Origin: Clytia hemisphaerica
Lineage: Eukaryota > Cnidaria > Hydrozoa > Leptothecata > Clytiidae
Direction of reading: 5' to 3'
Length of the DNA stretch: 64,000 nucleotides
NCBI GenBank assembly: GCA_902728285.1
Contig: CACVBU010000738.1
Coordinates: 972,186-1,036,185, forward strand
This document shows, piece after piece, positions 1 to 63,698 of the stretch. Below the pieces are notes generated by a model. It was not told where the DNA came from and ran no database searches. It saw only the letters and a program-made list of their open reading frames with translations. The first letter of the stretch is position 1; every line of letters begins with the position of its first letter. The position numbers and the translations under genes were made by a program.

Positions 1-93
1 CGTTCCAAAAGATTCAAAGATGATTCAGTCAAGAAACTTTTGTTTATCATCACGGATGGTGTACCCACAAAACCACGCCTCGCTGATGCATCG
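1..93 (+). CDS. Exon 1 (5' partial): vWA domain 1, central part
   Basis: 31 codons, phase 0 at the donor gtaaaa. It encodes the FIITDG strand, whose Asp is part of the vWA metal-ion site, followed by an ADAS end. It is nearly identical to the 3' part of exon 16 (17536-17628). The start of the exon and of vWA domain 1 is left of the window. Confidence 0.9.
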
Positions 94-3000: not shown

Positions 3001-6000
3001 TCCGGTACCTATACTTATAGTAGGTATGAAAAAAATAATTTTTTTCTTCTTGGTTAGACCCCCAAACAAATCTAAGGCCCTCAAAGTTCTAATTTAGGAT
3101 TTAAAGTGTATTTTGATTTTAACGTACAGTTTTGAAAATATTTAGGTTCCAATAATCTAATTGCAACACTAGTTACTTTGCAGTGAATCACTGCTCGAAA
3201 TTGGAGACCAAAAGGACTATTTCATAAAAAGTTATTGGAGAAAAACCATTTTGTAGGAACCACAGACAGCGTACTTTCAACACAAAAAGTTTCGGCCTAA
3301 AATTCCACCTACATTTTCAGATAGAGGGTACCTCTATTTTTTGTAGGTTTTGAGGGGTATCCGCTGGTAATAATTTTGCACTCGCTTATAGCTGGAAAAA
3401 AGTACAGATTTTTGGGTGAAGGCTGGAAAAAGGTGCATTTTCCAACTGAAAATACCTGGAAAAAAGGATGTTTTTGACCCAAAAAGCTGGATTTTTCATC
3501 TAAAATAAGCGTGGCCACCCTGTCAGACATAGTGCTACATGATGGTATACATTTGCACGCGCCTCTACGACTGTCATAGTTGACCTCCCCAAGCTCCCGG
3601 ACTATATCTTAGTTTGCTTTCACGGCTTCTACTATATTTTTATTCCATATTTTTACTTTAATAATTTTTTCATCCATCGCAACTTAAGGTTCGTAAATTC
3701 AAAGAAAGCAATTGGGGTGTGATGACTCTTGGTATTGGAAAATTTGACACTAAAAAATTGAAACGATGGGCAACGAAACCTAGTTGGTTCTTTGCTGCCG
3801 ATTTCAAAGATTTTGCAAAAGTGTTTTCAGAAATGAAAGATGATCTTTGCAAAGGTAGGTGACCGTTATTTTACCAAATGATGATGTATTTCTGCAATTT
3901 TTCATATTTTATACCTCGTTTATGAATTTCTATAGATCGAATGTTTGAATGGCTCTTAAAAGTGTTGTCCGGTCTGTTGATTATTTGTCTGTAAATAGAC
4001 CCGATATCTATGGAAATTTCAACAAAATTCATTGCTGTGGAGGAACTTACAGACAATCACAACAACTTGTGCTCTAGTACAGAGTAACTGATTATTTATT
4101 GTTTTACATTTTAGTTGCTAAAGACGTCGAAGAGCAAGAGTGTAAGATTTTCTTCATTTCCCATTTACAGCCAACTGCTTTCAATCTTTGCATTTGAAGA
4201 AGACATTGCATAACACGAGTAAAATGTAACCCTTAGTTTCCGAGTGCCTAGAATTTCAGCCTGACCAAGGGGTAATGTTCCGGGGGGGCACACGATTTCG
4301 AAACGACGGTATGTGCCGCGCAAAATCTGCTTTTCAAAATCGTATCCTTACAGTGCAGTTCAATATGGCTGAAAAGGTACCCTTTCAGTGCATTTTCTCT
4401 TGATTTACCCAACCCTTATAGTGCACTGTATTTCTCAGCTGTAAATCTGTGTGAAAAAAGAAGCTTGGGAAATTTTCTGTTCTAGAGAAAAACTGAGAAA
4501 AATATTCTTGTCAGCTGTAACTATCAGACATTAGAAACTTTTTCAAACAAACGAGAAGTAAAAACCTTTCTTTTTATTATTTGCTTTAAAATTCGACCCT
4601 TGCAGTGCAATCTCGCAGAAACACACCCTTACAGTGCATTTTGAGATGCTGAAAAACCCCACCCTTAAGCGCGGCATATGACGTACACGTTTTTTTTTAT
4701 AAGGAACCTTAACTTTGCTCTGAGCCTGGAGTTCCTTATTTTTACAGAGAATTTCAGCCTCAAAGTTTCTTATCGAGTTCCTTATTTACATAGCTGCTAA
4801 GTTTGGATTCGCAAAAATTGGATTCCTTACCTTAAAACTTTTTTTCTTTCTGAGCAGCTCCTTAACAATTCCTTATTTTTTGGACCATTTTCAGCCTCGA
4901 GTTCCTTATAAACGTGATCCTTATAAAAAAAAACGTGTAGGCCAAATCATATGAGTGCCCCCCCCCGGGTAATGTCATACCCTGTCTTAGTTTCGGAGTT
5001 CGAACATGCTAGAAACGGTTATATCGACAGAATGATTACACCCCTGTCTCACAGCCCCGGTGGAACTTTTTTCTCATCAGGGATAAAAATTCCTATTGAA
5101 ATCCCAATGGGGATAGAAATTCTATTGTTCCAAGATTCTGTGGGGATGGATTTGATGTGCAATTTTTAAAAATTGAATTTCGAATGGGATTAAATAAAAG
5201 TCGATTTCTCAGTGGGGCTGAAATTCTAGGGTTTTTTCCCACCGGGGACAAAATGTTTGCAAAATTTTCCAGTGAGGCTGGGGTCCCTGCGGGTTTGTGA
5301 CACAGGGTTGTAAGACTATTCGACTTTTTATGAATTTTTGGATTCCCTATTTTTTCCAGTGATGGTTGCGGAAGTGGAATATTGTAAATTGAAATACGCA
5401 AATGCAAAACATTGTTATGCTTTCGAAGAATCCAACAAGAATTATGTTTTTGATTCCATCACCTTCAATAAAGCTATCATGAATTGTGTAAGTAAAAGTT
5501 CATTGTGTATTCTTTGTACGTTGTAATAATCGGTACCATGTGATAATTCTACAGGGTGGCCAAAAAAATATGGTCAGCCAAAATTGTTCTACTTGTAGAG
5601 CAATTAGTGCGATAGGAATTATATTTCTCTTTTGTTACATAGTTGCGTTGGAAACTTCATCATAAGCGCTCCCACTAGACACCTTTCTCGTGTCAGATAC
5701 ATAATGCATTCCACAATAATTTTTCATTGTTTGAGGCATTTCATTCAGATACTTCACTTGCCTTAATAAGAGACCATTCCCTTATAAATAACATTTTGAA
5801 CAATCTGGTTACGTATAATGAATGTAGTCTGAAAATTGATAGAATGTCTTCTTCTACCCCAGCCTCCAACCTCGTTCCCTGGGCCCGGTTGTTCAAAAAA
5901 TCGATTAGATTAAATCCCGATTAGCGCTAATCGCGATTTAATCTGGACTTATGCTAATCGGCCGCTAATCCACTTTTGAACAACCGGGCCCTATGCATTA

Positions 6001-6299: not shown

Positions 6300-6352
<53 letters not shown>

Positions 6353-9300
6353 AATTGCGCCACGGAAGCTTGAAGTCCTAGAAAAGGCATATAGAAATGT
6401 TTTTTAATCATTTGTATAAGTGTTTGTCAAAGAACATCAATCAAAATAATGACGTCATATTGTCAAATCTTATTAAGCAATTGTTTTTGTGGTTTTTCAT
6501 ATCAAATTGCATATCTCTCAATGAGATATAAATGTCCTCCTAGATGTAATTTCATAGGCCTTTCACCATGTCCTGTTGTCGTCCTAATCTACTTTTAACT
6601 ACATTTATATGTTTGTTTTACGACTTCGAGATTGTATTTCCCAAGGAAAGTAGACTAAATCAATGTTTTTCAAAACCATTTCTTGTTCTTCTTGAAATTG
6701 TTGAAACCATTTGCCAAGGGTAATAGGCTGAGAAATTATTCCTTGTTTTTTTCAAGGAAAATTAACTAAGCTGGTCTACTTGTATACTTGTATTAGCCAA
6801 GGATATGAACTGAAACAATTTTTATTTCAATAAGGAAAATTTACAGAAACTTCTATTTCCAAGTGAAAACCCAAGGATAATAAACTAAACCAATTTCGTG
6901 TATTTTTCAAGGAAAATGAACCAAACCAATTTCGTGTAATTTCCAAAGAAAACCAACTAAGGCAATTTCGTGTATTTCCCAAGGAAAATGAACTAAGCTA
7001 CCAAGGAAAATCAACTATAAACCACTCGTGTATTTCCTAATAGACTGGAGTCGTTTATAATGCATGTAATACTAATAATAAACACAAATAATGATACGGG
7101 ATTTACTTTGTATAAACGACTGGAAGAATCCGGTGTTCCAGCCTTATAGATACCGGGCCTAGCTACGCAGAAACTTGCGTAGCGAGAAAACAATTTATTA
7201 AGCAAAAACAAACTCTCAAAATAAAATCAGCTCAAATGAAACATTTTTAACACACAAATCCACACAAATTTTATTTTCAAGAATTTTTTTTGAGCTGGAA
7301 AAAATTTTAATTGCGATATTGACACTTTTTTTTTGTTTGGAGTTAGTGCACAAAGGTTTCTAGACGACTAAAATTTACTTTTTTTGCTTTATTTCTAATA
7401 TGTCTGAATTAGTCGTCTAGCTTGCTAGACTAATTTCCTAAGGAAAGTGAACTAAACCATTTTTTTGTATATTTCCGGAGGAAGATTATTTTTGCGAGTG
7501 ACTTACTTTGTTGAGATAGTATCTTTTTGACGAGAACTTATTTCTGGCGAATTTTTGCCAAAGTTAAGCGCTCGTGCAAGGTTATATATTATTGTATGTA
7601 TTAATTTTATATTTGCAGGGAGCGAAATTAGTGTCGGATGAGTTCAGAGGGTTCAAAGGACGTGTTCTTACTTTGAACGATAAAGATGATAAATGTTCAG
7701 CAAACCAATTTCCTTCCGTTGATTTGGGACCTTTCAAAGGTATGTATTTTTGACCTCTGAAATCTCCCCTTCCGATATTGTTAGATGTTGGTAACTTTTT
7801 TAAAGAAAATATGTACTCTAAAGGTTCTTATTTTCGTTGTTTTCGAACCTGCGTGATTAGCCTTAATTTTAGACTCAATAATATTAATGAGTTATTAGAA
7901 ATAGAAAAAGCTTAAAATAGTTATACTTGTCGCCAGGAACCATGGAAGGCTGTTATATTTTTCTAATTTTCAAATTTTGCATTTATTATTTGGTGGCATG
8001 TTACCGCTAGAATCATTTTATCACAGCTCTTGCTAAGGTTTCAGCGCCACAAGTCAGGTGTTCCTGCCGCCTTCCTATATTTCCAGTCAATTCGCAGATT
8101 AGCGAGTAGGTAGGCTCTGCCGTTAAAGCCATTAAAGGACTGTCTAAAAGATTCCTGTACTAACCACTTGAAAGGTCGATTCTATCTATATGTCTGTTTA
8201 GAGTCTATGTCAATTGTCAGAGGGTTGATTATTTTTATTTTGAAACTCATTACCAGGTGAATGCAGTGCAGATCCAACACTTTGCACAAATGGAATCACC
8301 ATTTCTTTTTGGTTGAAAATGGAAGAAAATGTAATCGCAAAAATGAAAAGCAAAGGATTCAACGAGTTTTACGTTTGGGCCAGTGGTGGTCTTCAAATCA
8401 AAAACAGGTACGGGTACGGTTGTCAGATTTCTTTATTCATTGTCGTTCCCAGTTCTTGGGGAATTGCAAGGCCCGCGGAATCGGTCAATTGATATTAGAC
8501 TTTGTCAACTTATCTGTCTTAACAATCGTGGGAGGATTTCCTCAAATATAGATGGAAAATAACCTGTTTTTTTTTAGGGCAGAAATTTGTCAATTACAGC
8601 TTTAAACCCTATAGATACTTTCATAACTCAAATGTCTTCTATTGGGGATAGGAGTCTTCTTTGAGATAAAGTTGTCTAGGAAACTTTTTAGGGCTCAATA
8701 GAAATAATTTACTGCTTCACTTTTTAGAGGTTATGCACTGGTTTACCGAAACGGTGGCTTTGAGTTACATTTACAACACAGTGAAGGTGGTCACGTGATT
8801 AAAATGACGTCATTTGTTTATTCAAAATGGTTCCACATCTCTTTCACTTGGTCAGGTAAGAGATGCATATTTTCTTTTGGTTAGGTTTTCGCATAGAGAT
8901 TTGTCATAGCAACGCATGTATGTTGGAATGACGCAATGGCGGGAGGGGGAGTTTAGGGGGTAGCAACTCCGCGCGGCCATTCCGTCAATTTTTCCGCAAT
9001 TTTCTTCACACTGTTAAAATGAAAAATGAAATTTCTTTTCAGTCGAAAATTCTGAAGATTTTGACTTTTTGGTTCCAATTCCGAAATGTCGGAATTCCGA
9101 TCGATTTTTTTCGCTTGAATTCTCCTGTATCCCCAGTTTTCTATCTTTGATAGTGCAGCTAAAGTCAGCGATTTTGTTCAAATTTTCGGTGATTTTCGCA
9201 CAAATACCCGTTCCTCCGCCAAACGCAAAACCTCTCCAGCTATTAAAACTCAAACTTAAAAACTTGTCAAGTTTACCTAATAATTCCAGGCAACTGGTGT

Positions 9301-9681
9301 ACTATCTACATTTCATATTAGTTTAAGTATTTTCTTTATTTTGATTTTCAATTACCTCCATGATATTGAAAACTTTAAATATCTTTTATACAGCATCAGA
9401 AGGCCTCCGTTACTACCAAGATGGTGTTTTAAGTGGATCATCAACCTCCTACAGTAAAAAATTTGCTGCTTCTTCGCAAACATCGATGACTATTGGGAGA
9501 CTCAATAACGGTGTAAAAAATGCAAAACAAAATTCATTTGCTGACTTCAGAATGGACGACTTGGTGATTTATGAACGTATTTTGGCTCTCAAGGAGATCG
9601 AGTATATGGCTGGGAAGCGTAAGACAAAATTAAATCTTTGGGAGGAGAGTACTATTTTGGTGACAGCGGGGTATAACGTAG

Positions 9682-9713
<32 letters not shown>

Positions 9714-12700
9714 TGCCCTCCGATGCATCGGAATGGGTCCTACCCACGGTGGAGTAGGAATCACAGCGCAAGCAGACATTGCAACCCTGCAGATGCGAGC
9801 TGCAGAGCCATGGTGTATACCACGACACTCGAACTACACGGGAGAACGGATGTCCTCGCAGGTGTAGAACCTCCTGAGTGTCACGGCACACCACAATGTC
9901 TGAAATATCTACCCATACTCTTGTATCAGAGTTATGGTACCCAATTCCCCTCAAATGGCATGGGTTGACCCGGGCGAAGGAGCATTCACTTGCCAAGTGA
10001 ATCGTAGTGCCACGGTGGGTATCGAAATCGAGCCTCCTGGACAGAAGTCAAGCACGATAACCACTACACCACTACGCCTACACGGGGTATAACGTAATGA
10101 CTTGATGAAGTCTAAATGAAGATTAAAATGCACCCTTTTTAGCAATTATTCTATTACGCTGACACTGTGTCAACATTTAAAATAGAGTACTTAGTGTGAA
10201 CGGACCTTTTTTATGTTATTGTATTGAGGGTCAAGATTTTTATTATCAACTAAAATCTAAAAAGTTGAAATTTGTGTCTCCAACTAGAATTTAAATCTTT
10301 CAAATAAATCCATAATGAATTTTCGAATAAATCCTCATTTCAAACCGTTAAAATTTATTAATTAATATAATCTTATACGAACTTAAAATTTGGGATCTGT
10401 TCAAGACTTCAAGGTTACAAACGAAGAAATCACTTCTCATTTCAGAATACGCATTGACTTCGAATATTTATTATTACGCACGATGGTTTTGGGCATGGAA
10501 ACGATTATGGCACCACCACGAGGGTAATGGAGAAATCATGTACTCGCCAATGTACTTCCAACAAGATTCCATCAATAATGCCGGAATATTAAAGGTACAC
10601 CTTTCATTTAATGTCTTAATGAGATAATATCAATGTTAATACTAAAACAAACTTTTTTATCAGTAAAATTATTATTAAATCAGAACAATCCATCACCAAC
10701 ATTATGAAAGACTTTCTTATTTCCGAGGAAACATTTTAGGTGCATTTTCGGGGAATTTTCCGCTTTTTCCTCCGGCGGCATATCGGCAAAAGTTTTTTTC
10801 CTGCTTATACAATAGTGTAGAGAAAAAGCAACGACCGAGCGAGAACGTTCCTCTTGTACATAACCAGAGTGTTGGCTATTTTTCCGTTGTAAAGTGGAAA
10901 TTGGAAAATTTGCCTGAGAATGAGAAAGTTAAACAATTTCACCATCTTTATTTTGATATTCCCGTGTGTTTTCCCTCTCTTCGTTATTATTTGACTATTT
11001 TACAGAACAAACCACGACTAGAGTTTTCATCTAAGAGAGGGTACCATTTACGGATCAGAGAAGCAACTTATGCATACATGGGCGATTACAAAGGTACTGA
11101 AAGGTTTTATTTTTACAAAGTGTTCAAAATATGTTTCATATCAGGACGGTGTCTCCCTATTGCTGTATTATGCTGATATAAGCAAAAAATGTTTTTCTTC
11201 TCCTCTTTTTGACCAATCTTGCTCCACATCCGTGTCAATTCAATGTGAAAAAGCTTGTAAATTAAAATTGATGAGTAAGCGAACGATATCACTCTATTTT
11301 AAAAACAAAACCTCTAAAGTTAGACGTTTATCATCCTTGTATCCAAAAAAGACCATTTACCCACATACATAGAAAGTTATGATTTCTAGAAAAAGATCAG
11401 GGTCTGGCCTTGAACTTGAATTGAATTTTTTTTTCATTTTAGTTCTGATAACACAGAGCCAGGCAACGTAATTTCTTTTACCCAAATCCATATCCTAATA
11501 AAAATTTCTCATATAGGTCTTAGTACATATAATATTTATTGGACAATTTCCCTCTTAAGCCTTTAGTCTGGTGGAGATACATCGACGATGTCTTTTTGCT
11601 TTGGGAACACGGGCAAGAGTCTTTAAACGAATTTCTGACATATCTGAATGCCGAGCATCCTTCTATCAAATTTACGGCAGACTTTCCCGACTCAGAAATC
11701 AATTTCTTGGATGTTAAGGTCAGTCGTAAAGGGGATAAGTTAGAGACCGACCTCTATGTAAAACCAACTGACACGCACCAATATCTTGATGCAACATCTT
11801 GCCATCCGGATCATTGTAAGACGTCTATACCATATAGTCAAACATTAAGGCTAAACCGTATCTGTTCGAAGCCCGAGTTGTTTGACAAAAGATGCGATGA
11901 TTTGGAAAAGTGGCTACTCAAGCGAGGATATTGCCAGAGATTGGTGCGCAAGAAGGTGATACAGGGTCGGAAGTTCGATAGAAAGGATCTGTTACAGCAG
12001 GAAAAGAGTGTAAAGAAATATAAGCTCACTCTTATGATAACTTACCATCCTGCGTTCCGGAACCTTTATAGGATTGTAAGGAAGGCACACTCTATTTTAG
12101 CTTTTGATAAAGTACACCAAAAGGTTTTCCAAGACGTGCCGTTAGTGGGCTTTCGCAAGGGCAAAAATCTTAAAGATATGTTGGTTCGCGCGAAAGTCCC
12201 TACCTTGGGGGATGATAACAAAGGCCAGAGTGAACCATGTCTTGGAAAACGCTGTGGTGTTTGTCCTTCAGTTAAGAATACATCAGAGTTTGCTTCTAGG
12301 AATGGAAAGATATACAACATTCGTGGGTTATCTATGAACTGTAGCTCATCCAATGTTGTATACCTTCTTAGATGCAAAACCTGCGGTATTCAGTATGTCG
12401 GTAGTTGCACGACTCCTTTTAGAACTAGGTTCAGTAATTATAAATCGTGTAACAAATATCACAAGGACAAAACTGTGCCACAACAAGAACTTCACGAACA
12501 TTTTGACCTACCTGGTCATTCCGGTTTTGCAGATTTTGAATACACTCTTATTGACCAGGGAAATAGCCTTGAAGATGTCAGGAAGAGAGAACGTTTTTGG
12601 CAATATAAACTTAATACGTTCCTTCCTCACGGGTTGAACGATAGTGAAGTTGTTGTTCCGGATTAGGCCATTTTTTGAACTCCTCAGTTTTCTGGGGATA

Positions 12701-18700: not shown

Positions 18701-21188
18701 AGGACTTACCTACCTGATTTTCTTTATTCCAGTCAAGAAATCAAGAACTCGCAAAAAGTACAAGTTTTATTTTCTCATCGAAGAAATTTTTAATTATGGA
18801 AAAATTCAGTCCCAGCCCAAAACTTCCTTATCAGCCCCACGACTTTACCAAGTACGGTGTATGACATCATTGTATTAGTGGGGCGTACGAGGGCTCTGAT
18901 TTTCGAAATACCGAAAAAAATTTCTTAGTTTTCAAAATTTAGGATTAAAATGTTTTTTATTCATCACTGACTTTTTGTTTTTGAGCCAATTTGCCAAAAT
19001 TCTGGAAGTTAAGAATGAAATCGTCTCACTACCGACTTAATAGCGAGGTTAAGCACGGGTTTATTTTGACCGTAAAGTCCGATACCGTAGGCCTGTACAT
19101 AACTTGCCAAAGCAAACCATGCAAGTGAAATCTTATGTACAGGCCTACGGTATCGCATTGAACGGTCTAAATAAACACTTGCTTAATATCGCTAATGAAG
19201 ATCTAATTTCGATACCGAACCAATTTTAGGATTTCAAAATTGCGAAGTAAAACTGGTCGATTTTTGCAATACCCAAATCTCGTACGCCGCGTACGTTTAA
19301 CGGAAAGATTAACTAAAATCGATCAGTTTGTCTCACAATAAAAATCAACCAGAGAGAACCTAGCATAATCTTATTGGTCGTTGAATTTCCAATTTTTTCC
19401 AGTGATGGTTGCGGAAGTGGAATATTGTAAATTGAAATATGCAAATGCAAAACATTGTTATGCTTTCGAAGAATCCAACAAGAATTATGTTTTTGATTCC
19501 ATCACCTTCAATAAAGCTATTATGAATTGTGTAAGTGTGATTTATTTGCCCTTTGACTCGTATGGAAAATTACAGTTTTGCTAGGCTCTGGTGTCGCAAG
19601 GAAAAAAGTTGTTCTCAATTTTCTGGTCGACCACTATACGCTACTATAATTAGTGGCGGGTATATCCGGCCCCGGGGGTACTAGGTGTGGGGTTAGGTGA
19701 TGGGTTTGTCCGAGTCAAAGGTCGAAAATCGACCCTTAGAAAGACCGAGTTTCGAAAATTTTGCGTCCATTTTTAGATGTTTTGGCCATCCTTAGAGAGG
19801 CTTTTTCCCCTAATTTCCAGCCAACATTTTCAAATTTGAGTCCATATTTCAAGAATTTATGACACTTTGAGGGATTTGATTTTTGATTTCCATAATTTTG
19901 GAACCCTTACAGAGACTCTATTGCTTTTGAATGGTTCTTTTTACCTCTTTGAGGGACTTTCGAGTGTGTTGAAAAGGGAGCCTTTATGGTTTGTACACCC
20001 GGCACCCATTTTGCCTAAGTATCCCCCCCCCCCGATCCGGCTAATTCGAGAGGAAAAAAATTTTTTTATGAGGAATCAGTGCCGTAGGAAGCATTTTCTT
20101 ATTGGGGGGCTGAAGTTTAGTGACACCGCGGGGGCCAACCATGGTTTGGCCCGAGGGGGGAAATTTTGAAAATTTAAGATCTAAATTGCTTGAAAATGCA
20201 CTCAAAACAAAATGCTTTCAAGAAAAAACAAGAAAAACTTTGCATTTAGCAAAATAACCATTTTTGAAAAAATTATTGGGCATTTTGCTACGGCACTAGG
20301 AATTGTCTAACTGTATTTATTGCAAAAATCGATCCTGTGAGATTTGTACTGATTTGTACTGAATTCTAAAATTTTTGCTACTTTTTTGATGTTTTTACGA
20401 CCCCTTTGAGAGCCTTTTCCCCCACACATCTTCCAAAATCTTCATACTATTGTCTAAATTAAGTGAATTTATGACCCTCTGAGGGAGTTGTTTTTTAATA
20501 TTTCTTAATGTTTGGCGGGACCTTTTCAGCCCGGGCAAAGGGACACTCAAGGTAAGTGCACCCTGAAGGTAAGCAACTTACCGCAACTTAAGCTTTGAAA
20601 TGGACCAATATTCTCAAGAAAACGCCCAAATCTACTCAAATGGGCCTGATTTTGGGCGGCACATACGGTCGTTTCAAATCGAGCCCCCCGTTTTCAGAGA
20701 CTGATTTGCTGTTTTAGGGTTTTTGCAACCTCGTTTCCTGTGTACTATAAGCTTTTTGATGCTTACTGAATGATTGCGCCTGATAATACCATAATACCCT
20801 GACATTGTCTGGTTTTCGAACGCGTAAGATTACGTAATTCAAAAACAAAACGTCAGATTTCATTCGTTCTTCTTTTTTGAAGCCGTTGCATTGAAGTGTA
20901 ACTTTGTAACGTCAGAATTTGTTATGACGTATTATTTTGAGAAGTTCCCCCTCTGAGATCAGCATCAGCCAACATCAGGGTATTCTCTTGAGTCCGTCAG
21001 TAACGTAAAATAAAGCCTGGGATATACGGGAACGAAGTTGGGGTTCTTGTACCCCTATAAGGACTATGAGAGACACTTTCAACCTTTGTGGATTTTGGAA
21101 TCTCAACATACCGCGTCATGGATAAGTGAGGAAACTGAAGGGCTCTCGGATGTCAAATCTGATGAGAAAAATGTCAAACAATTTCGCT

Positions 21189-21228
<40 letters not shown>

Positions 21229-48200: not shown

Positions 48201-51200
48201 TTTGGCATTGTATAATAGAAAAGGTAAAAATCAATTTCTTTGTAATCATAATAATTATAAGCATAATTAGGCTCATTAACCTTTCCAGCGCGCAACATAT
48301 TCTGAAAAGTGTGAAAATTTCCAACTTTCTTTTCTGAAATCCAAAATTTCAAATTGGCATAAAAGTTTGTACCTTGAGAGTTAGACAATGGTTTTGGTAT
48401 TCGAAAAAGGTATTTTTATACTATTTTCTAAGACCATTCGGTTTATGGCTTTTTAAATCAAGTGTTCAGGTCAGGAGTTAAAGCCTGAAGCCTGGGACTT
48501 GGTATATTGGCTAATTTTAAACGAATATGTGCGTCTTTCGGGTTTGAAGGGTTAAGATATTAAAACAATGGCTCTTTTGTTAAAGAATGATATAATCATA
48601 AGCATGTGCCATACACTTACCTAAGAAGAGAAAAACACATGTTGACGTGTTCTAGCTAGGCTTTTGCTCATCCTCTAGCGAAAATAGTTTCTTATAGGAA
48701 GCATACCTTAGAGGTCTGCTATTCAAACTAGGAGGAAAATAAAGAATTTATATCACGTTGGAAATATAGTTTAAAAAGGTAATAATTTCAAAAAATCGAG
48801 AATATAAAGAATATTTTACATTGCTCAATTAGCTTCAGTAGTAATTTCTGCCGGTTTTTGATCTACCCGAACACTGTCTCATGCACTCTTTAAAATCTAG
48901 ATTACATCGAACCGTTCAAATCAAATCAACGTTACTGCAAGTTAAAGTATGGTGGTTCAGAATTCTGTTATGCTTTTGAAGAACGAAAGAAAAACCAAAT
49001 TTCTGATAGTATGAAATTCAATCAAGGTGAACTACACTGTGTAAGTGGTCTTTTTTGTTTGGCTGGGTTGAATAATTAAATTCAGATTTGACTCTCTATC
49101 CAATTTCTTGAGCAGATCTGGTTTAATCGAATATGACACTTTTAGAGGAGCATATCCAATGTGGCTTTAAAGCAGGGAATATATGGGGTGGGGAAGAAGA
49201 TGGGTGCATCGTCTGACTTGATTTAAGATATTCAAGATTTTTTTGGAATATTATGTTTGTAACAAGGTAAAACTTTGTCTCTGCTTGCAACTGACAAAAA
49301 ACAAGGCCATTGTATAATGGTTAATGTTTTGATCATTCAGGGAGCCAGACTGACTTACAACAAATACAATGGACACGAAGGATCGGTATTATCCTTGTTG
49401 GAGAAGGATGCTTCTGATAAATCGTGTTCAGCAGATGAAAAACCATGGCTACAGTTGAAGAAGCTGGAAGGTAAGAAAAGTGATGGGAAACAACTCCCAC
49501 TATTTTAAAACCCGATGTTCAGATCTTAAACATTAGTTCAGACTGATAGATTTTTGGACATTTGTGAATGTAGGATTTTTTATGGCCCCCTTCCCTTGTT
49601 TTGCTGCATGTTTTATAGACAGGGAGAATTTATTCCGACTTTGTAGCATCTCACCTGATTTCCAAATGTATATTTATTTGAATCCTGCCTCTTCCTTCTT
49701 TATTTCAGACAATTGTTTGAGTGATCCAGATCTGTGTCAATCAAACGGTTTCTCCATTTCAATGTGGTTGCTTATCAATGCTAAAGATTACCAAAAGACA
49801 GATTCGTCCACCAAATATATTTTCACCAGTGGTGGTAATAATGTTGCGTCAAGGTAATTTCAAATTCACCTTTTTGGCCCTATTTACACCAGCCCCTTAT
49901 TGGCGTTATTTCTTGTCGCTGGCGTATTAAGGGCCAACGTAAGGAATTGGAATTAAATTAGGGCCGAGCTAAAAATGGAAAAAAATGGGAATTTGGCGTA
50001 ATAAGGTCCGGTAAACGGAGTTGGCGTAAAAAGGGTCGATAAAGTACTTAAACATGTACTCAGACATCTAATTCGCAATATATTTTGGCTTGCTAAAGAA
50101 TGATTCTTTTGGCCTAAACTATATCACAAACATACTCAGAAACAGTGCTACCACAATCAAATTATAGAAATCTCTTTTTCACATTTATATTTATTGTTGC
50201 TTTTTCTTTGAAAATTTCAGAGGGATCGCAATGTGGTTTGAAGGTTCCAAAGGATTTATGTTTCGTATTCAAACATCCAAAATTTCATACACTATTTCAT
50301 TGGGAAGTTTACCTTTCGATTCTTGGTTCCATTTGGTTCTTGTTTGGCCAGGTATGATATAATTCTTGTTTTATGCGTCGAGTTTGGCTGTTGTCAAACT
50401 CAAAGTTAATAACCCAATCAATAGTCAATACAAGCTTTTCTTTTTCTGAGGAATACTCTTGTTAAAACAAAAAGAAAATTTCATTGAAAAAGTCTGAACG
50501 CATGAATCAATTTTAAGGTTGCTTTTTACAACTTCTCACCCGATTATTTTTCAACCTTGCTCGACCTGTGTCGCTAAAAGAAAATATTAGACTGTGAAAT
50601 GTTACGGTGTGGCAATCCCTAATAGCCCTGCTTGACTGATAATCTTTTCTTCTAGAGAGTTCAGGCTCATCCAACGATCAAATCTTGTATTATCTGAACG
50701 GTAATTACATGCGGAGAGTGACTAACAGGATATCTCAGACTTACCAAAAAGGGAAAGATTTTGATGTGGTTGTTGGTAAACATGAAAATAAGAAGATTGG
50801 TTTCGCACGTTTTATGATGAACGATTTGGTTGTGTATTACAGACGTCTCACTCTCCTGGATATCCAATTCATCTATGGTGCACGGAAAGGTATAATATAT
50901 CTCAAAATCCATTAACCAAAAAATAATTTTTTTTTGATTTGAAGCCTAAAGGTTAACGCCCTTTTTGTAAATGACTCACAAAAAGGTGTACATGACTTTT
51001 AGGGTTTCTGTCTAGGTGTTTAATGAAAATTCGGGATTTTTGTGATATATGTATATCTTTAGGATTCGTACTTTTCCTAAGTATTCGAGAGATTTTTGGA
51101 ACTTTTTGGAAAATATTTTTATCAATATTATCTTCTGTAAAATTGCATCTATTTACTTGCTTTGATTCTCTCTTACTTTAGCTTACCGAGTGAGGTCGAA

Positions 51201-54200
51201 TTTCTATTATCTTGCCCGCTGGTTTTGGTCCTTCAAACGATTGTACTACATAAAGAAAAGCGAAGATTCAGAAATGAAATTGTACTCACCATTATATTTC
51301 GATCAAGATGATATTTCACGAGCTGCTGTATCATATGTAAGTCTTTTACACAGATTCTTTTATAAGAACCAGTAAATTTTGGCTCAGATTGGGCTGTTTT
51401 TAATTTTTTGAAATTTTCAGGCCTCTTACGATGCTCTTAATACGCTTAGCTTCTTTACTTAAAACATTTTAATGGGTTTAATATCTGTTAAAATCAGTAC
51501 TCTCTGAGTAATCTCTGAAATCTGAGGCTTAGAATTGTTCTTAATTTGTTCTTAGGTTTTGGGTTACTTTACTTTACTTTAAGGTTCGTGTTCTTATAAA
51601 ATTGTTCTTATAAAAAAGTGTGTATACGTTCGGGACTCTCAAAAAATTTATTGCTGTCCAAAAAAAAAATCTTTCAAAGTTATTAATCTTAATGAATAGG
51701 GCTTAAAAATTTACAATTTTAATTTTAGAATCTAAAATGGAGATTATTTAAGTAGTTAGTATAGTTAAGTTAGGGGACAGACCAAAAGGAGAAGCCTTTT
51801 CAAACATCGAAGACAACCGCTTTTTCCTATATGCTAACAATTGAAATCTTTCTTACTAAAGTCTGTTCTTTCCTTCAATTTCATCTTTTAGAACATGGCA
51901 ACAATCAAGATGAACACATACAGGAGATATGGCTCAGGTTTAGAGTATTCGTTATACTTAGAACAGATGGGTGATTATCTTGTGCTCGGTGATTACAAAG
52001 GTATTTGAATATTCCTTGATTGAATACACATCTTATATACATCTTTCCAACCGTCAGTCGGAACCACTACATAGAAATGGCAACTATTGCCTTAACGGGA
52101 AATATTTTCATATTGAAAATTTCATCACTTTTCTGTTTTCCGTTTTGGTCAAGAACTTTTCATTGTCTCCGAACGGAAAATATAATTTTTATTTTTGTAA
52201 ACAAAGCAGATTTTTATTTCTCGATCGAGAAAAAATATTCCAAATAGGGAAGCTTTTGATTGGGAATGGAGAAAGTAGAATTAAGAGTGATTACCCGGTA
52301 GATTTCTTAACTACCTGGTGAATATTATTTATTTTCCCTCCTTTACAAGAGGGACACGTTTTAAACTTTCCACAGGCATTTCTGGAGTGCTCAGAGGCCA
52401 CTTTCCCGATCGGGGAACTGGTTAACTTTCTGCTTCAGAAACTCTATCCATTTCGGGAAGTTTTTCATCGTCCCGTTCGGGAAATATTTCCCGTTAAGGT
52501 AATAGTTGCCATTTCTATGTAGTGTTTCCGACTGACCGTTATGTCAGTTTGTATCCTCTAGAGGTGATTCCTGGTGGGTAGAAAAATATAATACCTCTCG
52601 TGTTTGCAATCCGAAATATTATAGCTCGCCTGAAATTCCTAGGGATGTTAAAATATCTTGCTGTTTCTTCACAGCCATTCTACACGTTTTTTTTATAAGA
52701 ACACCCAAACTTTTTGAAGCCTCTTGATGTTCTCACGACCATTCTATAAATTAAGACCTCAAAGTCTGTCAACCAAAACTTTGAAAAGTATTAACTCCTT
52801 GTATTTCATTAATGATATCAAAATTTCAGGATCCTGCGTTTCCGATCCCGACCAATGCGATAGCGCTACGGATGCGTCAGAAAACAACAAAAACAACGAG
52901 GTCTCAGATAAAGATTTAGAGAGAGGTCTATCCGTCTCTTTCTACATCTCCATGGTACCTGCTAAAAAACAAGATGGCGGTGATCGAAGATATATCATTT
53001 CCAGTGGAGGACAAAATGAAAATTCTCGAGGTTTTGCGATATTTTATGTGGTGTCAACGGAAAAGTACAAGCTCCAACTTCGCACTGGAAGCATCATTTA
53101 CGATGTGGACTTTGACCTTTCAACGACATCTGATGACGTCATGTCTTTCTTTGCATTCACGTGGTCTTCTAAAGGTCAGTTTTGTTTTGATTGTTTTCTG
53201 TTTGTTCCACGAATACCCCTCTCTTCCCCCTTTTTGCACCATATCAACTCTAATACCGTAGGATCACTGCTGTTATACCAATTGGAAGTGTTTTCTATCA
53301 AACTTGTAACCTATAACCGTGTATTAAGTCCAATTCTGTATTTAGATAATTTCCAGTAATTTTATGTAAGAAGATACCTTTATATTGAGGGACCAACCTT
53401 AAGACCTGTGACAACAATTGCCGGAGTGAAAATTTTATGGTCCATCCGAAAGAATAATATATTTAGAGACTTTTTTAAGAGGGGGACGCGAATTAAGCCT
53501 GGCAAATTCTTTTATGGCCACACAACTGACGTTCCAAGCAAAACTGTAATGAGGAAAAAGTGCGTAAAAATCAACATTTTTCAAAATTTGACAAAGAAGA
53601 TTGATACCATTAGAAAGAGCATTCGAAATTGTTGACACGGGTTCTAAGGAATAGCCACTTAAGGCCGGTCTCCACTTGCGCGCGCTATGATTGCACTTTT
53701 TGGCTTCAATCCTTTTTGCTTGGAAAAAAGATTACATCATAAAAATGAAGCGCGCGCTTGAGAAAAAAGTTGAACACATTTTTTCAACCGTTACGTCAGA
53801 TCGAAGCTTTGCTCGAAAAAGTGCGATCGAAGCGCGCGCAAGTGGAGACTGGCCTATACTACCAGGAACTCTTTCTGCATTTTTGTAATAATATTATATA
53901 AATTTTAAACAGATGGTTTACGAATTTACATCGATGGAAAAATGGCTGTCCAATCAAAGGGCAAAGAAATGAAACAATCTACAGACCAGAACACTTTACT
54001 GACCGTCGGTACACCGAATGATGAGAACAAAGATTTCGGCATCTTCAGAATGGACTTGTTGGCGATTTATTTTTACCGATTGACGTCTGTTAATATCATG
54101 TCTTTGTACAACGAGCAAGGTAATTTTGTATAGTTTTTTTTGCCTGGAGCCTGAAGAAAAATTTTTTTCAGAGATTCACCTTGACGTGTCATTATCGATC

Positions 54201-57200
54201 CCCCCTCAAACTAGCGTAATTTTTTTTAATTCGTAATTTTCTTTAGATGCACCGAAAATAGTTGCAGATAAGCAGTACTGTAATATCAAGTATGCAGGTG
54301 CGGAGTATTGTTATGATTTTGAGGACCAGAATGGTAACCAAATTGCAGACTCAATGAAACAAAAACTAGGGACAGTCCAATCAGTAAGTTTTAATTGCGT
54401 GTTTTTCTTTTGTAATCAACAAAGTTTCTCACATCCCTTCACTGTTCACTGTATTATTGCGAATCTAAGTTTCTACTAGCTGTAGAAAACATTGTGAAAT
54501 GGGACGAAATATCAAACTATAACGAAATAACTTGGTAGAAAACTACCGCTCACATGCATTTCAAATCGAAATTTGTTCCGAAAATTAAGTCTGCTCTAAA
54601 GTTTTTATTCCAAAAATAGAAATTGCTAATCCGCATATTTTTTTATACTACCTACAGTTTGCAATTCTGACCAAGATGGGACATGATTTAGAAGAAGAAT
54701 GTTAATTTTTGTTTCATTCTCTTCCCTAGGGTTTATATTTTCATTTTATTACTATAGGGTGCAAGATTGACGGAAAGTTCGTATGAGACTTTTGAAGGTT
54801 CTGTTTTATCGCTGATGGGCAAAGAAAATGATGACTCATCAAACGCACAAGCCAATGAACAACCGTGGATTGATTTGAAGAATTATGCCGGTAAATATTA
54901 TGTTTCATACAAAGAACTTTTTTGGCTTCCTATAATGTGATGCGACCCTGGGCTTGACTATTCAATGAATTATGAAATGGTCTATTGTTGTTATATTTCA
55001 TTTAATTTTTCCCATTATATTTGAATTTCTATACTACAAATACTACATTTTAAGGGCTAAAAACTTAAAAGAAAGACACATTGGTCGGAAGGCCAGGTAA
55101 ATACGTACAAATTATTTTCAATAAAAAAAATACAAAAAAATATTTTGTTCTTCTTAATTCTTCAACATTCTATCTAAAATATTGACACTTCTACGGATAG
55201 CCTTACTTCTGAAAGTAGTGACAAGTAACGCATAACTTTGGACATCGAAACATTTTGTAGACATTCAGTATGAAGATTGTCTACGTGACTGCATTGGAGG
55301 TCTTGGAGAAAGTAGGAACTTGACCAGGATCCCGATTTTTGCCGCTGACACCTTAGACCACTTACTCAGAAAGTGCAAACCTCTTCTTAATTTATGCTTT
55401 AGATACTTGTTTGATGGACAAGTTCAAATGTGATGCCATGACCATTTCGTTTTGGTTGTTCCTTAAACAAGAAGATTTCAAGGGAAATTCAAAGAAAACT
55501 ATCTTGTCCAGTGGAAAGTTGAAAACAAGGTACAGCTGTGATTTATATTGCTTTTTACATGTTTGTATGTAAATCAATTTTCCATTGCCAATACAGGCCC
55601 GGTGGAACCACCGTAAAAGCAGGGAGGCTGAAGGCTCAAAATGAGATAAAACTCGCTAGGAATTTGAGAAAAAAATCTCATTTGTCTCCCCGCTTCCGCC
55701 GAGCCTGAAATAAATTCTATGATGTCTATAAGCTTAGAAAATTTTTTAAGAATGGCTTGACTATAATAGTTTAAGCCCTTTTTAAAACTTTAAGAACACC
55801 ATCTTCCACCTGAAAATCACGGAAAAGTTCATTGTTCTTCTATAAATAAAAGTGCAAATTTTTCTGTTTATTTTTAACAGACATTTGGCATTATGGTTCA
55901 ATGGAGTCTCAAGTGGATTTGTTTTCCGTTTCCAGTCATCACCAAAGAACGTTCAAGAAATCAAATTCAAATCAATTCCATTTAACACATGGAATCATAT
56001 GGTCTTTGTTCAAAAAAGTAATGCTGCTTGAATCGAGAAATTAAAATATAAAACGAGACGTTTTCTATGAGACGTACTGTCAGCTTTATTTCAACGCCTT
56101 AAAGGGTCAATCTAACGATTGTCCTGTTTGTTCAGCCAAAATATTTAAAGCCACGTTGCCATTAACGTAAAAATGGAAACGAAAGCGAATGGTGAAAGTG
56201 ACGTTTTATTGCTCTAGGCAACCACAGCGATAAAAAGCCCCTTCTCATAGACCTGGTAGGATTTTTTCAGCCAGTGGGGATAAAAATAATAAGATAAAAA
56301 TAACAGACTGAAATTCGATGGGGATTGATATTTCCATATTTTTTATGACTGGGGATTTCTTTTGTTAGAAAATTCAGTGGTGGGGATGGGAAAAATAGCA
56401 TAATATTTTTGCAGCAAGGATTGGTTTATATTTGATATTTTGAGTGGGGACAAAAATTGGAGTATAATTTTCCACCGGGGACGATAATTCTGGTCAATTT
56501 TTCCAGTGGGAAGGGGTCCCAGTGGGTCTGTGAGAAAGGGGTGTATTAGTAATCATGGTCTGCGAGGTTCGAGGGTCAGTCCTTATTTTGCCAAGACTTC
56601 CTTAATTGAAATATTGAGTATACTCTTTATACTCTAATTTATGAAAGAGTTTATGAATCTAAATCCAAAATTTAATCGCTTTGCTTTAGGTCAAAAATGT
56701 ATATCAATTATTTATATTTCAAATACCTCTTTTCTTTACAGGCGCCACAGAATGGGTATATTATTTGAACGCTAAGAAAACTAAAGGAAGCTCCACTATC
56801 AAAGAAGACTCACAACTCACAACAGATGTCGAGTCTGTTGACTTCTACATTGGGAAATCTCATGAAAGGACTGGGAATTATGGACGATTCTTAATGAATG
56901 ATTTTGTGATATATTATAAAGCACTCAGTGACAAGGAAATCAGTTTGATTAATGGTCAAGTCACTAAAGGTATTGATAAGAACTCTCGTTTCAGCTTGAA
57001 ATGGAGAAAGTTTATCCCCGTTTTAATTTGCTCTACTTTGGGCAGGTATCACAATCTAAGAGAACACTCTACAGACTAAGTTATCCTCTTGCCAATTCCT
57101 TCCTTCTACCCCTTGCTTTTGTCTCTCTTGTGTGAAAGATCTTGACCACTGGCACATTCCTGTGCCACTTTTTGGACCTACCTGGAGGTCCTATAAATTA

Positions 57201-60200
57201 ACCTTTGTCCGTCCGTCCGTCCGTCTGTTACCAGCTTTTCTCAGGATTGGCTCATTAGTTTTTTCTGATTTTTGGCACAATGATGCAAAATGGCAATGCC
57301 CAAAATGTGACGGAGCCCGATTTTCGAAAAAAATATATTTGGGCAAATTTGGGCCAAAAACTGCCCAAAAATAGGGTTTTTTGTACAAAGATGGAGGGCA
57401 AGATTCTCTAAAGAATGGCTGAAGTGGTTTTTCCCGGAAAATTCTTATTCGCCTTAAAAAACGGATTTTCGTATTTTGGGGAAATTCCCTTTAACCAAAT
57501 AAGAAAATATAGCTTTTCTCAATGTTGACTCATTATTTTTTTTGATTTTTTGCACAATGATGCAAAATGGCAATGCCTAAAATGTGACGGAGCCCGATTT
57601 TCGAAAAAAAATATATTTGGGCAAATTTGGGCCAAAAACTGCCTAAAAATAGGGTTTTTTGTACAAAGATGGAGGGCAAGATTCTCTAAAGAATGGCTGA
57701 AGTGGTTTTTCCCGGAAAATTCTTATTCGCCTTAAAAAACGGATTTTCGTATTTTGGGGAAATTCCCTTTAACCAAATAAGAAAATATAGCTTTTCTCAA
57801 TGTTGATTCATAATTTTTTTTCGGATTTTTTGCACAATGATGCAAAATGACAATACCTAAAATGTGACGAAGCCCGATTTTCAAAAAACATTTTTTTCCG
57901 GCCGAAAATGCCGGAAATATGCCGGAAAAACTGTTTTTTTTGGCATTTTCTTAAGATTTTTTGCTCAAAGATGCGTATTAACGATGCCCAAAACATGGCC
58001 GAGTTCGATTTCTGAGAAAAAAATTTTTCCGGTTGAAAATGCCGGAAATCGCCGTGTTTGCAGATTTTCATTGGATTTTTTCCTTATATTCATTTCTATG
58101 TTTTTTACACAAAAATATTATTGATAACAATGCTCATCACCATCAAGCATGATTCAATTGTCAATATAAAACTGATTTTTGCGACCAGAACTTTCTATTT
58201 ATTTTTTCCCTACAACCCTTCCCTCTCCCCCCATCAACAATCAATGATGAATTTATTGCGTTATGCATTTTCGCTAAACGCTATATTTTCTGACTGATTT
58301 TTTTTCATTTTTCTCCTCGCATTGCTATCTAACTTTCATCATCAGGTAGGTCCATTCAGCATCTAGCTTGTTTGCCTAAGTACCCACCCAACATGAGATG
58401 CAAATGTATAAAATGGTTTTTTATTGTTTGAATCTCATGTCTACACAGGATCTCTTCCCTTGATACCAAAGTCAAAAGTACTTAATTCTCTAAATTTTGT
58501 AAGAATTTCAAACCAATGTCTTCATTAGATACCGTTGTACCATCAAATGCTTACTATTATGCACGATGGTTATGGATGTTCCATCAGGTGTGGTATATGA
58601 ATACTGTACCCTCTTCACAAAGATTGATTTACATTCCAATGTATTACGATATCATGAAGAAAAAGAAGCCCTCGTCGGATATTGATATGAAACACGTCGC
58701 AAGATTGCATGTGAGTTCAAAAGTTTATCGAAAGTTGTCTCTCTCTAATTCGATCTTCATGGGACCAATTTAATCGAATTAGAGAAAGATTCGCTTGAAT
58801 TACAGAAAGAATTTGAATAATAGGTTCGAATAAAAGTGAGTTTGATATTAATATGAAACACGTCGCAAAAATGTTCTTCGAATTAGAGGATTTCGAATTA
58901 CAGAGAGTAATTTTAACCACTTTCCAGTTATGGGGGCCAATCTTTTAGTTTGAATTACAGAAAGATTCAAATAATAGAGGTTCGAATTAGAGTGAATTGA
59001 CTGTACTTTATAATAGGGGCCAAAAGAATCGGAACTGCGCTAATTTTCTATAAAGATTGCCAGTCTCCTCCGCCCCCTTTTCCCATTTCCCATGTCGAAG
59101 GAAAGGCTTTAAAATGTTTCAGCAACAGTAGACTGGGAAAAAATCTATGTACTTTTGACCAGAGCTGTAGATAATTTCTCAAGTGCTAAACGTGATATAA
59201 TCGAGTTAGGAAATTGGACAGTACTAGATCAATTTTAACCGAACTTATTAATGCTCATAGTTCTATCTAAATATTTCATCTTTCGTCTTTATATGTGTTT
59301 TCTAACAAATAAAACTTCAAAATACAGTTCTATCAATCAAATCCCACAGGTTTTTCAAATACATTTTTCAATGGCCCAGTCTTAACCCTCCCGAAATAAA
59401 TCATCGAATTTTCATACTTTGAAGGGTTCAGCGAGAGTGATTGTCAGTAAACGACGTTTGATTGGCGATAAAGGATATCATTTGCTGCTTCAAAATGTCG
59501 GTGATTTTGTTGTGCTTGGTAACTACAAAGGTATTCTATTCCATTCTCATTCACAACATTCAAAAACGGTTTTTGCGGTAACAGATCTGATAACTCATGG
59601 AATTTCCAACTGTTTCAGTTCGGACGAAGAACTGGCTTGAGGTTTTTTGTATTGGTCTTAACACAATCAAAAATTGCTTTCGTCTAACAGGCTAGCTTGA
59701 GGTGCACTTCAATTAAACTTGGACATACTGCGTCTTGCGAACGTAAACTCCTCCCTCATGTTTGCTCGTCTATGTTCAAAGGTTTATTAACTTATAAGAA
59801 TGCAATAGCGTCATAACCTCGTGTTTATGTCCTATGATCAACGGTTCCTTTTTATAAGAATGCGTTAACGTATAATTAGATTAATACTGGTTGCAAAATT
59901 ATATCAATGCAGCCAAAACATGCGATTACTCGAAAAATTCACGTGATTTCATTCCAATGTTACTTGCCTTACAACTTACAGTTAATTACTTTATCAGTGT
60001 CAATAAATTCGAACCAATCGTAAATAAATGTCATGTAACAAGCACATCAAAATTTCGAGTAAAAGTGTGATTTGTCTTCAGACTTTAATTTTGCAACCTG
60101 TGTATTTGTTTTTTATGGTGATCTTTTTTGGTGTTTTTTATGTTTTATCCACAGTGTTTGAATATTGATTCCTATACTAGGATTATATGCATTTAGTAAA

Positions 60201-63200
60201 TTTAAGATGAGCAATATATTCATTGAAATGCACATTAATTTTCACCAGGAACTTGTGTCAGTGATCCAGAGATATGTGATTCAACAACAGAGAGCAATCA
60301 GAATCTCCCGAACGATCCTTCACTGAACGATCATAACATGGAGAAAGGATTGTCTGTCTCCTTCTGGTTATCCATAACCACTGATGACGTCAATATTGAA
60401 GGTTTGTCTATCTCTTTTGGCAAAAACTCAGACCGCCTGCCAGAATTTTTGAAAATCCATTTTTCTCAAAATCCCTTGAATACAATATGGCTAACAATTT
60501 AAACAACAGACAAACGAATTGACTTTACACAATAGATAGGATAACGGCTTTCAGATTTTCCGTAGAAGCGTGTCCAGTAATGAAGTCGACTAGTCTGTCA
60601 TGTTGTTTTATGTTTACATCAGATTTTCGAATGTTTTAATTTCAAAATATTCGAATCTAAGCCCGATCAAGTCAAGTAGTTAGAGAGTAGTTAGAATGTC
60701 AAGGGTTGACTGACGACAAATGTCTGTATAGGTGATTGTAATGATGCAATGACTTACATACATTTGTGGCAATATTTTACTGTTGTAGATTCGAACGTAA
60801 TCCTCTATCATGCAGCTTTTGGCGCAAGAGTTGATAGGTGTTCATTGCTTTTTGTACATGCGTCAGTTCCAATTAAATGTAAATTCACATTATAATAGAG
60901 ATTTTCCATGTTTTGTAAAGTTACGTAATTTCTGCCATTATGGAAGTGAACGTTCGATTTGCGTAAGGGGTCGCCTCTGCAGATTTGAACGGTTTTTTCT
61001 ATAATGGCGGAAATTACGTGAATTAACAAAAAATGAGAAATTATTCTTGATTTTTTCGTTTCACAGGATCACCAGTAGACCGCAAACACCAATACATTAT
61101 TTCCAGTGGTGGACAGACAAGCAATTCTCGTGGATTTGCAATCTTGTATGATGCTGAAACAGAAAAATTCAAACTTCAACTCCAGACATCAACGAAAGTG
61201 TTCAATGCAGAGTTTGATATTCCATTTGCTGACTCACCTGATTCTAAAGGATGGGCTTTCATCTGTTTCACCTACTCCAAAAAAGGTGAGTGTTTTGATA
61301 CACCAACCCTTACTTACAGCTTCTGAAAGAACTGGTAGTGAATTTAAAAGGCAAATTTGTTCTCGGTGCACGTGATTTTCTGTTTAAAAGTCTTAGACTA
61401 CTTGGCTACCTACGTTAAATATCGACTCTATCTATCTACTTGCAACCGTCAGCTGATTGAAAAGTGACATTAGGTCAGAAGACATTGTGGGAGTGCATAG
61501 CCTTAATTAACCAGACACTTATCAATGTTTTTTGAACTATCCTTTTTCAGACGGTGTCAAGATATACATTGATGGCAAAATGGTTACCGTGGCAACAAGT
61601 GAAGATAAATCACATCCAACAGACATCCACACTAAACTGACGATTGGTATTTCAAACTATGTATCAACAAAACATTTCGGGCGCTTCCAAATGGATTTGT
61701 TGGCAATTTATTACTACAGATTGGTACAACAGCAAATTGAAAAACTTTCAAAAGACGAAGGTATGATATCTTGAACCATAATATTGGCACGGACATATTT
61801 TCATCAGGATTCGCGCTAAGTAATACTTTAAGGGCAGAAGCGAGACCGAAAAGTCGCGAAATTTCGCGGATTTAAGTTTCGCGATTTTTACTTTTTGTAG
61901 AAAATTTACGGAAGAAACTTTCGCGGTTTATTGTGAATGTTCAATTTTAGTAGCAATAACTTTCGCGAGTGTCTAGGGAAAGTGAATAAAAAATTATTTC
62001 AAATCTAATTTTTTTCTTCAATCGAAAGAGTGATATGCTAATAAATGAAAAATAAACTATTTGCACTTCTTCCTCCCATTCCGAATCCTAGGTCAGTGCG
62101 ATAATATCGATAATATCGACTCTCCTCGGCTTTTAGAACTTGGAAAAAACTTTAGCGATTTTTAGGAAAATTTCATTTTTCGCGAAATTAACTTTCGCGA
62201 ATTTCTTGTTTAATTTCTTACCTGGCAGAAACTTTCGCGAAAAAATGCCAAAAACGCGAAAAACGCGAAAGTTTCTGCCCTTAAAGTAGTTATCGGACAG
62301 TTGCGAGTACAATATGAGAAATATTTTACGAGTTCCGAGATTTTTCCGTACAATATTTTCCGAGCCTTCAGGCGAGAAAAATATACGGAAAAAATCCGAA
62401 ACGAGTGAAATATTTCTCATATTGTACGGTCTGATAACTGGTTTATCGATGACCCAAAAAATACACTTTTTGTGTTGGAAAAAATCGCAGGGTACATTTG
62501 TAACATCTTTTCGTCAATTTATATTTTTACATGTAAATTACAAGATATATTGTACTCTTTTTAACCAATCAGATTGCAGATAATTTTTGGATCGTCGATA
62601 AGGGAACTATTTAATTTTCAAAAGTGAAGGAAAGAAAGAATTGTTTGACTAGACTCGCAATCTTCATTCCACAGTTATAAGATACCATCGAATTTTCAAA
62701 ATAAAGAGAAATCAACCTTTTCAATTCTTTTTCATTTAATTAATGGTGTGAAGCTGTGTGAAGTCAATATTACGGTAGATTGACCAATAATATCTTAATG
62801 TCATATTATATTCTTTTAGCATATTCTGGAGATAACACCGATCCCATCACGACCACCACAACGACAACTGAAGCTCCTACAACAAGCACCACAACACAAG
62901 AACCAATCATCCCTCTTGAAACAACTTCAACAACTCCTACGACAACCACAACAGTCGCTGGTGAAACAGAGGAACAATCTGATACTCTTACAACAACAAC
63001 AACTACAACAACGACAACGACACCATCTCCAGTAGAAGTCCTGTTGAATCAAGGACAACCCACGACAAGCACAACAACATCAAGTGATGATCAACAACAG
63101 CAACTTCCTGACATACAACCCACGACAAGCACAACAACATCAAGTGATGATCAACAACAGCAACTTCCTGACATACAACCGACTATGTCAACGACCACAA

Positions 63201-63698: not shown

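Follow-up and report, generated by a model that had tools for sequence, protein, structure and literature searches.

A run of exons fills a 64,000-nucleotide stretch of the Clytia hemisphaerica genome (the window; C513:972186-1036185 in our contig labels), which raises the question of whether these exons form a single gene and, if so, what kind of protein it encodes. A preliminary description made from the sequence alone had joined 57 exons into one stop-free frame of about 3,280 codons, and had suggested matrix, mucus or recognition roles for a product whose two ends lay open. Here the window was scanned together with 70 kb on either side (204 kb), and searches were run against the genome, which comprises 417 Mb in 951 contigs. 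Coordinates count from the first letter of the window, with negative values upstream of it.

Extent and exon structure of the gene

The exon model was built independently of the preliminary description by combining splice sites with coding statistics and a comparison of module copies, using confident exons and a higher exon penalty, because a low penalty gave hundreds of false short exons. Within the window it comprises 57 exons of 9,841 nt, or 3,280.3 codons, free of stops and with GT-AG borders at all introns, reproducing the earlier count and length. Adding the exon just upstream of the window gives 58 exons and 3,400 aa, and the full model, on the + strand like all exons given below, extends over ~72 kb from -1306 to 71086 with 71 exons, 70 introns and 4,135 aa. 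Both ends, left open in the preliminary description, thus close in the flanks. The first exon (-1306 to -1234; 73 nt, 24 aa) encodes the predicted signal peptide MLILRCISLILTFILLVNVQEAKQ, which has a hydrophobic core; its ATG is preceded by an in-frame TGA, it is in phase with the first vWA exon, and it scores 3.39 for hydrophobicity and 4.8 for the donor. Downstream, the frame is closed by a TAA at 71084-71086, followed by an AATAAA at 71179, 93 bp past the stop.

In the model frame each of the 71 exons is free of stops, compared with 11 of 142 exon readings in the other two frames; openness was itself a criterion of the model, which makes this count supportive rather than independent. Some borders have alternatives (9394 or 9400; 27345 or 27351), the donors after 60401 and after 64415 (GTTTGT, following the first exon of the third vWA domain, vWA3) are weak, and the linker exons at 4115, 16082, 18624 and 65496 (27-63 nt) are uncertain, several linkers having been placed from coding score and phase alone. 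A further predicted exon, 69662-69713, was discarded, as the SEA-like exon at 69941, which is common to a second gene downstream, directly continues the phase.

Might the locus instead hold two or more genes, namely a vWA/LamG gene that ends at the Thr-rich exon, followed by an independent gene for vWA, CAP, lectin and CRD? The two halves differ in domain style and no transcript links them, and the donor after the first vWA3 exon is among the weak ones. We nevertheless consider such a division very improbable. The intron between the halves (63699-64130, from the Thr-rich exon to vWA3) is only 432 bp long and its phases agree, and a shorter paralogue downstream keeps the order LamG, Thr/Pro-rich, vWA, CAP, lectin, CRD. 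Signal-peptide-like first exons fitting the phase of the next exon were also sought in the introns of the model, at self-chosen thresholds of at least 2.6 for hydrophobicity and at least 2.0 for the donor (the lowest donor score in the gene model being 2.02). No candidate passed both thresholds in any of the 70 introns, including 33053-42010, where the preliminary description had considered an alternative start; a looser scan of that intron gave four hydrophobic candidates, none of which passes both. The claim of a single giant gene therefore holds on this test. One signal-peptide candidate (71976-72018) does pass in the stretch from the stop to the next module, where a looser scan gave two more; the candidate at 71976-72018 fits a second, separate gene downstream.

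Two of the introns carry frames of other kinds. On the - strand at 34315-35265, antisense inside the 9 kb intron 33053-42010, lies an intronless, complete-looking frame with a hydrophobic start and a Fibrinogen_C match (E 2.1e-55). On the + strand at 11533-12663 lies a 377-aa open frame with a GIY-YIG match just below the cut-off (E 2.7e-4), which we take to be probably a remnant of a Penelope-like retroelement.

The vWA and LamG array

The encoded domains follow in the order signal peptide, vWA, LamG pair, vWA, four LamG pairs, Thr-rich tract, vWA, CAP, C-type lectin, SEA-like stretch, two CRDs and basic tail. The first vWA domain (vWA1), assigned by Pfam (VWA, E 4.4e-17), starts at -801 to -584 and continues through -143 to 93 (of which 1-93 lies in the window) and 3689-3854 to the linker 4115-4141. 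It is followed by module A, which is made up of a Cys-pair segment, a LamG domain, an aromatic linker and a second LamG domain, and which is encoded by ten exons (5360-5487, 7619-7739, 8257-8407, 8728-8855, 9394-9618, 10446-10594, 11006-11093, 13972-14169, 14453-14605 and 15538-15753). After a linker exon placed by coding score and phase only (16082-16144), the second vWA domain (vWA2: 16707-16942, 17392-17628, 17789-17954 and linker 18624-18650) is recognized by its likeness to vWA1, to which it is 74% identical; the Pfam scans covered vWA1 and vWA3, both of which match VWA. Module B then follows (19403-19530, 25579-25699, 25987-26137, 26637-26764, 27345-27569, 28253-28401, 29068-29155, 29857-30054, 32147-32299 and 32837-33052).

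Beyond the long intron lie module C (42011-42171, 42828-42948, 43236-43377, 43879-44009, 44788-45018, 45398-45549, 46328-46442, 46716-47060 and 48017-48223), module D (48901-49040, 49341-49470, 49709-49853, 50221-50351, 50656-50889, 51182-51336, 51892-52000, 52830-53174 and 53913-54119) and module E (54247-54383, 54758-54890, 55403-55529, 55881-56017, 56742-56969, 58529-58710, 59425-59530, 60249-60401, 61067-61285 and 61551-61760), all five modules being defined by comparison with one another and by Pfam. The proposed alternation of vWA domains with LamG pairs is therefore correct for modules A and B but not for C, D and E, which have no preceding vWA. The array does run, as described, into a Thr-rich tract, a single exon (62820-63698) encoding 293 aa of which 94 are Thr.

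Ten LamG domains had been proposed, together with a Pfam search to check them; in that search 10 of 10 exceed the cut-off for Laminin_G_3. Three of them (A2, B2 and E2) also match PF07953 above its cut-off, less strongly than they match Laminin_G_3. This family is named after a receptor-binding part of neurotoxins, and we take the match to reflect the shared ConA-like fold; it is not a sign of a toxin. One whole module compared with the PDB gave no match at E <= 1. All three vWA domains retain DxSxS and TDG (DGSGS in vWA1), which we regard as a MIDAS-type motif and which would be consistent with metal-dependent binding.

The module copies are under purifying selection. Module B is 91% identical to module A, and dN/dS between copies is 0.21 for A-B, 0.26 for vWA1-vWA2, 0.29 for C-D and 0.21 for D-E (the A-C comparison is saturated and gives no value), so the repeated modules diverge as coding sequence does. 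The vWA1/vWA2 pair has a dS of 0.60 as against 0.24 for the adjoining LamG modules A and B, which hints at gene conversion among modules or at separate duplications.

The protein is also strongly depleted in N-glycosylation sequons. Its 4,135 aa hold 3 sequons, compared with a shuffle mean of 33.7 (0 of 2,000 shuffles had 3 or fewer), and the reversed motif occurs 29 times. Within modules A-E (residues 241-3132) there is 1 sequon versus 22.0 in shuffles, with 26 reversed motifs, although the modules are copies of each other and the sites are therefore not independent. Nearby protein, taken as six sets of complete or partial frames, sums to 20 sequons and 18 reversed motifs, which is no depletion (5 and 3, respectively, in the pieces of the downstream gene that are among them), and each of eight short frames taken from other vWA loci in the genome has one sequon. 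Selection against N-glycans would be the simplest reading of this depletion, which predicts a protein almost without N-glycans despite its expected passage through the ER.

The C-terminal tail and its neighbours

Past the window end the gene continues into a 709-aa tail in which three Pfam families lie above the cut-off: VWA, matched by vWA3 (64131-64415 and 64969-65259); CAP (PF00188, E 2.1e-13; 66250-66391 and 66946-67262), reached through the linker 65496-65558; and, after CAP, a C-type lectin (Lectin_C, PF00059, E 6.1e-16; 67731-67956 and 68432-68610). The following SEA-like stretch (69019-69131, 69441-69499 and 69941-70086) is weak: it matched SEA, below the cut-off (E 0.001), only when a piece of 105 aa was scanned by itself, and the full-tail scan did not report it. 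The last two exons carry one CRD each. CRD2 (70926-71086, with the basic tail and the stop) reads CASSCHVVCANTCPNQCC and has exactly the spacing CX3CX3CX3CX3CC, while CRD1 (70442-70591) reads CX4CX3CX3CX3CC, its first spacing being one residue longer. The exact spacing is the CRD pattern of minicollagens (PMC4863159), in which a C-terminal CRD with a basic tail is common (PMC4195985).

When the 204 kb were searched for this pattern with 3 or 4 residues allowed in the first spacing (a range widened once CRD1 had been seen), 10 matches were found, of which 9 are exact; all lie on the + strand and in three genes, and 20 mononucleotide shuffles gave none. The three CRDs of the giant gene and its downstream paralogue have a Pro after the fourth Cys and lack a Val or Ile before the second. 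CRDs with only one of these two features have been described as a 'bridge state' (PMC4195985). When the tail was compared with the PDB, the best match was the CRD of Hydra NOWA (2hm4, E 0.26); an unrelated tRNA ligase came next at E 0.41, so the NOWA match is not significant by itself. No collagen domain was found by Pfam in the 709-aa tail, nor any Gly-X-Y run by eye in the printed protein.

The CRD genes of the 204 kb lie on both sides. The downstream paralogue, shorter than the giant gene, is described from individual exons; its LamG domain matches Pfam at E 8.5e-14, a second LamG is partly resolved (E 0.0056, below the cut-off), and its CRD, CPSTCGVICSSTCPASCC, has the exact pattern and is followed by a basic tail. 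The SEA-like exon and its adjoining intron (69930-70124 versus 92424-92618) are 95% alike in translation over 65 aligned residues, far exceeding most of the two tails, and this likeness of the two tandem genes suggests recent gene conversion. Upstream, from -26.6 to -24.5 kb on the + strand and ~23 kb before the start of the giant gene, a Pro-rich frame holds seven exact CRDs and a basic end; its first exon may be a signal-peptide-like frame that lies ~0.7 kb farther upstream. Whether this gene is a canonical NOWA was checked by searching 69 kb upstream with the tail of the giant gene and the pieces of the second gene as queries, and the idea found no support, as no convincing CAP or lectin match appeared there (best E 1.4). 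Farther upstream (-35.9 to -31.7 kb, + strand) lie four predicted exons with 30% Gly and 15% His. These are reminiscent of spinalin, which is rich in Gly and His and belongs to the spines of Hydra nematocysts.

Elsewhere in the genome, contig C851 carries an open frame of 334 aa that is Pro-rich, contains three exact CRDs and has a KRKRR tail; an overlapping frame adds a fourth CRD. A CRD query against the genome returned only this contig and the giant gene's own exons; it missed the seven-CRD frame and the CRD of the second gene, and is therefore insensitive. With the tail from lectin to CRD as query, matches on other contigs fell in or around the lectin part and reached at most 29 residues beyond it, and the part from SEA to CRD matched only the giant gene's contig (both among the 22 matches listed, in a search insensitive to CRDs). 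A collagen family search of the genome gave many matches but did not by itself establish minicollagens. A further locus, at C402:149-169 kb, combines vWA and LamG_3 with a long charged stretch, and the 20 kb read there held no CRD. C273 and C402 score identically and are probable near-copies, and C508 and C276 hold tandem arrays of vWA open frames, several of those on C508 with identical scores.

Relation to nematocyst proteins

The CRDs, the basic tail and the CAP and lectin domains support a nematocyst reading, as do the seven-CRD and C851 frames in the same genome, and because ten lectin-like domains and several binding domains are here combined with a tail like those cross-linking the capsule wall, the product is probably a giant building part of the capsule. 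We put at roughly 70% the probability that one ~72-kb, 71-exon gene encodes a secreted, 4,135-residue giant NOWA-like structural protein of the cnidarian nematocyst; its nematocyst location, CRD cross-linking and ligands are predicted from sequence. LamG_3 domains are present in the nematocyst-specific proteins NSP1 and NSP2 (PMC6134521).

The protein would be secreted into the capsule vesicle, where its C-terminal CRDs may become disulphide-linked into the minicollagen/NOWA network, CRDs being known to cross-link by disulphides in the capsule (PMC4863159). By analogy with NOWA, the tail would then anchor the protein while the ten ConA-like LamG domains, together with the vWA domains, extend away from it as a long rod, with the Thr-rich tract as a spacer that is probably O-glycosylated. 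The CAP-lectin tail and the LamG/vWA rod could bind glycan (for example capsule chondroitin) or protein ligands at a distance; the lectin domain of NOWA has been proposed to bind the chondroitin matrix during inward turning of the tube (PMC10014300).

The matrix, mucus or recognition roles suggested in the preliminary description stand as far as the product is extracellular, but they are too general, and the tail, which lies outside the window, points to the nematocyst. It is conceivable, though we think it unlikely, that the gene encodes a giant matrix or mucus protein secreted at the cnidarian surface (an adhesive, a mucin-like or a mesogleal protein) whose CRDs are merely borrowed. In favour of this, vWA, LamG, SEA-like and Thr-rich regions typify proteins of the matrix and mucin types, and the Nematostella collagen NvNCol-7 mixes minicollagen and ECM features, yet it is expressed in nematocytes (PMC12549020). 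The co-occurrence of CAP, C-type lectin, CRDs and basic tail, and the seven-CRD and Gly/His-rich neighbours, better fit nematocyst proteins. The least probable of the readings weighed here is a venom-type or immune-recognition protein, to which CAP and C-type lectin domains, known from venoms, and LamG and lectin domains, known from recognition, might point: CAP proteins are released by Nematostella nematocysts (PMC3627010), and C-type lectins and CRISPs are given for myxozoan nematocysts (PMC8773148). Against it stand the CRD tail and the very large modular rod, the dN/dS of 0.2-0.3 over whole modules (averages rather than site tests), and the tendency of Nematostella CAP proteins to be short, with a single CAP domain only (PMC3627010).

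Returning to the proposed nematocyst protein, we tentatively suggest that it may represent a class of giant nematocyst tethers not described before, in which a NOWA-type cross-linking tail is combined with a lectin-like rod kept nearly free of N-glycans by selection, encoded inside a cluster of capsule-structure genes (a Gly/His-rich gene, a seven-CRD gene and a tandem pair of NOWA-like genes). Nematocysts are reported to hold ~150 bar and to fire on a nanosecond scale, and a protein several-fold larger than minicollagens, NOWA and cnidoin with a like tail would qualify as a candidate scaffold or ruler of the wall or tube. It would also illustrate how capsule genes can grow by module duplication.

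In NOWA, CAP precedes the lectin domain and eight CRDs are present. The giant protein is called NOWA-like because CAP, C-type lectin and C-terminal CRDs make up the NOWA layout: NOWA is a C-type lectin that carries minicollagen CRDs C-terminally (PMC10014300), and it contains a CAP domain, called highly derived (PMC3627010). Like Hydra NOWA, the giant protein is predicted to be secreted, from its signal-peptide exon, and has CAP, C-type lectin and C-terminal CRDs of minicollagen type, the CRDs being compared by pattern. It differs in size (4,135 aa versus 88 kDa) and in the added vWA/LamG array, Thr-rich tract, vWA3 and SEA-like stretch; it has two CRDs, one of them off-pattern, and a Pro after the fourth Cys where a K14P mutant implies a Lys in the NOWA CRD (PMC4863159). 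The distribution of NOWA is given differently by different sources: it was reported in no cnidarian genome except Hydra's in 2014 (PMC4195985) and has been called 'medusozoan-specific' (PMC3627010), whereas 'four NOWAs' are listed for Nematostella, where cnidocyte-specific 'vWFA domain proteins' are mentioned separately from them (PMC12549020).

The CRD pattern is shared with minicollagens and cnidoin, and the basic tail with minicollagens (PMC4195985, PMC4321713); CPP-1 is a CRD polymer protein too, grouped here by description only. Unlike these three, the giant protein has no collagen, poly-Pro or silk-like core. Like it, the nematocyst-specific NSP1 and NSP2 have a signal peptide and LamG_3, but they contain one LamG, with or without TSP1, and no CRD or vWA is given for them in that source (PMC6134521). 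Polydom/SVEP1 is likewise a giant secreted protein with an N-terminal vWA and a ConA-like domain (in Polydom, pentraxin); it has Sushi, EGF and HYR domains, and no CAP, lectin or CRD is given there (PMC12549020). Sushi, EGF and HYR had no Pfam match in the stretches of the giant protein that were scanned (vWA2, the Thr-rich exon and several B-E linkers lay outside the scan). The preliminary description knew of no named protein with this architecture, and none was found among the literature matches listed, preprints and database gene models being outside their scope. We describe the protein, from its predicted domains, as probably of the NOWA kind, sharing NOWA's tail domain set rather than its size, and new in its size and its added domains.
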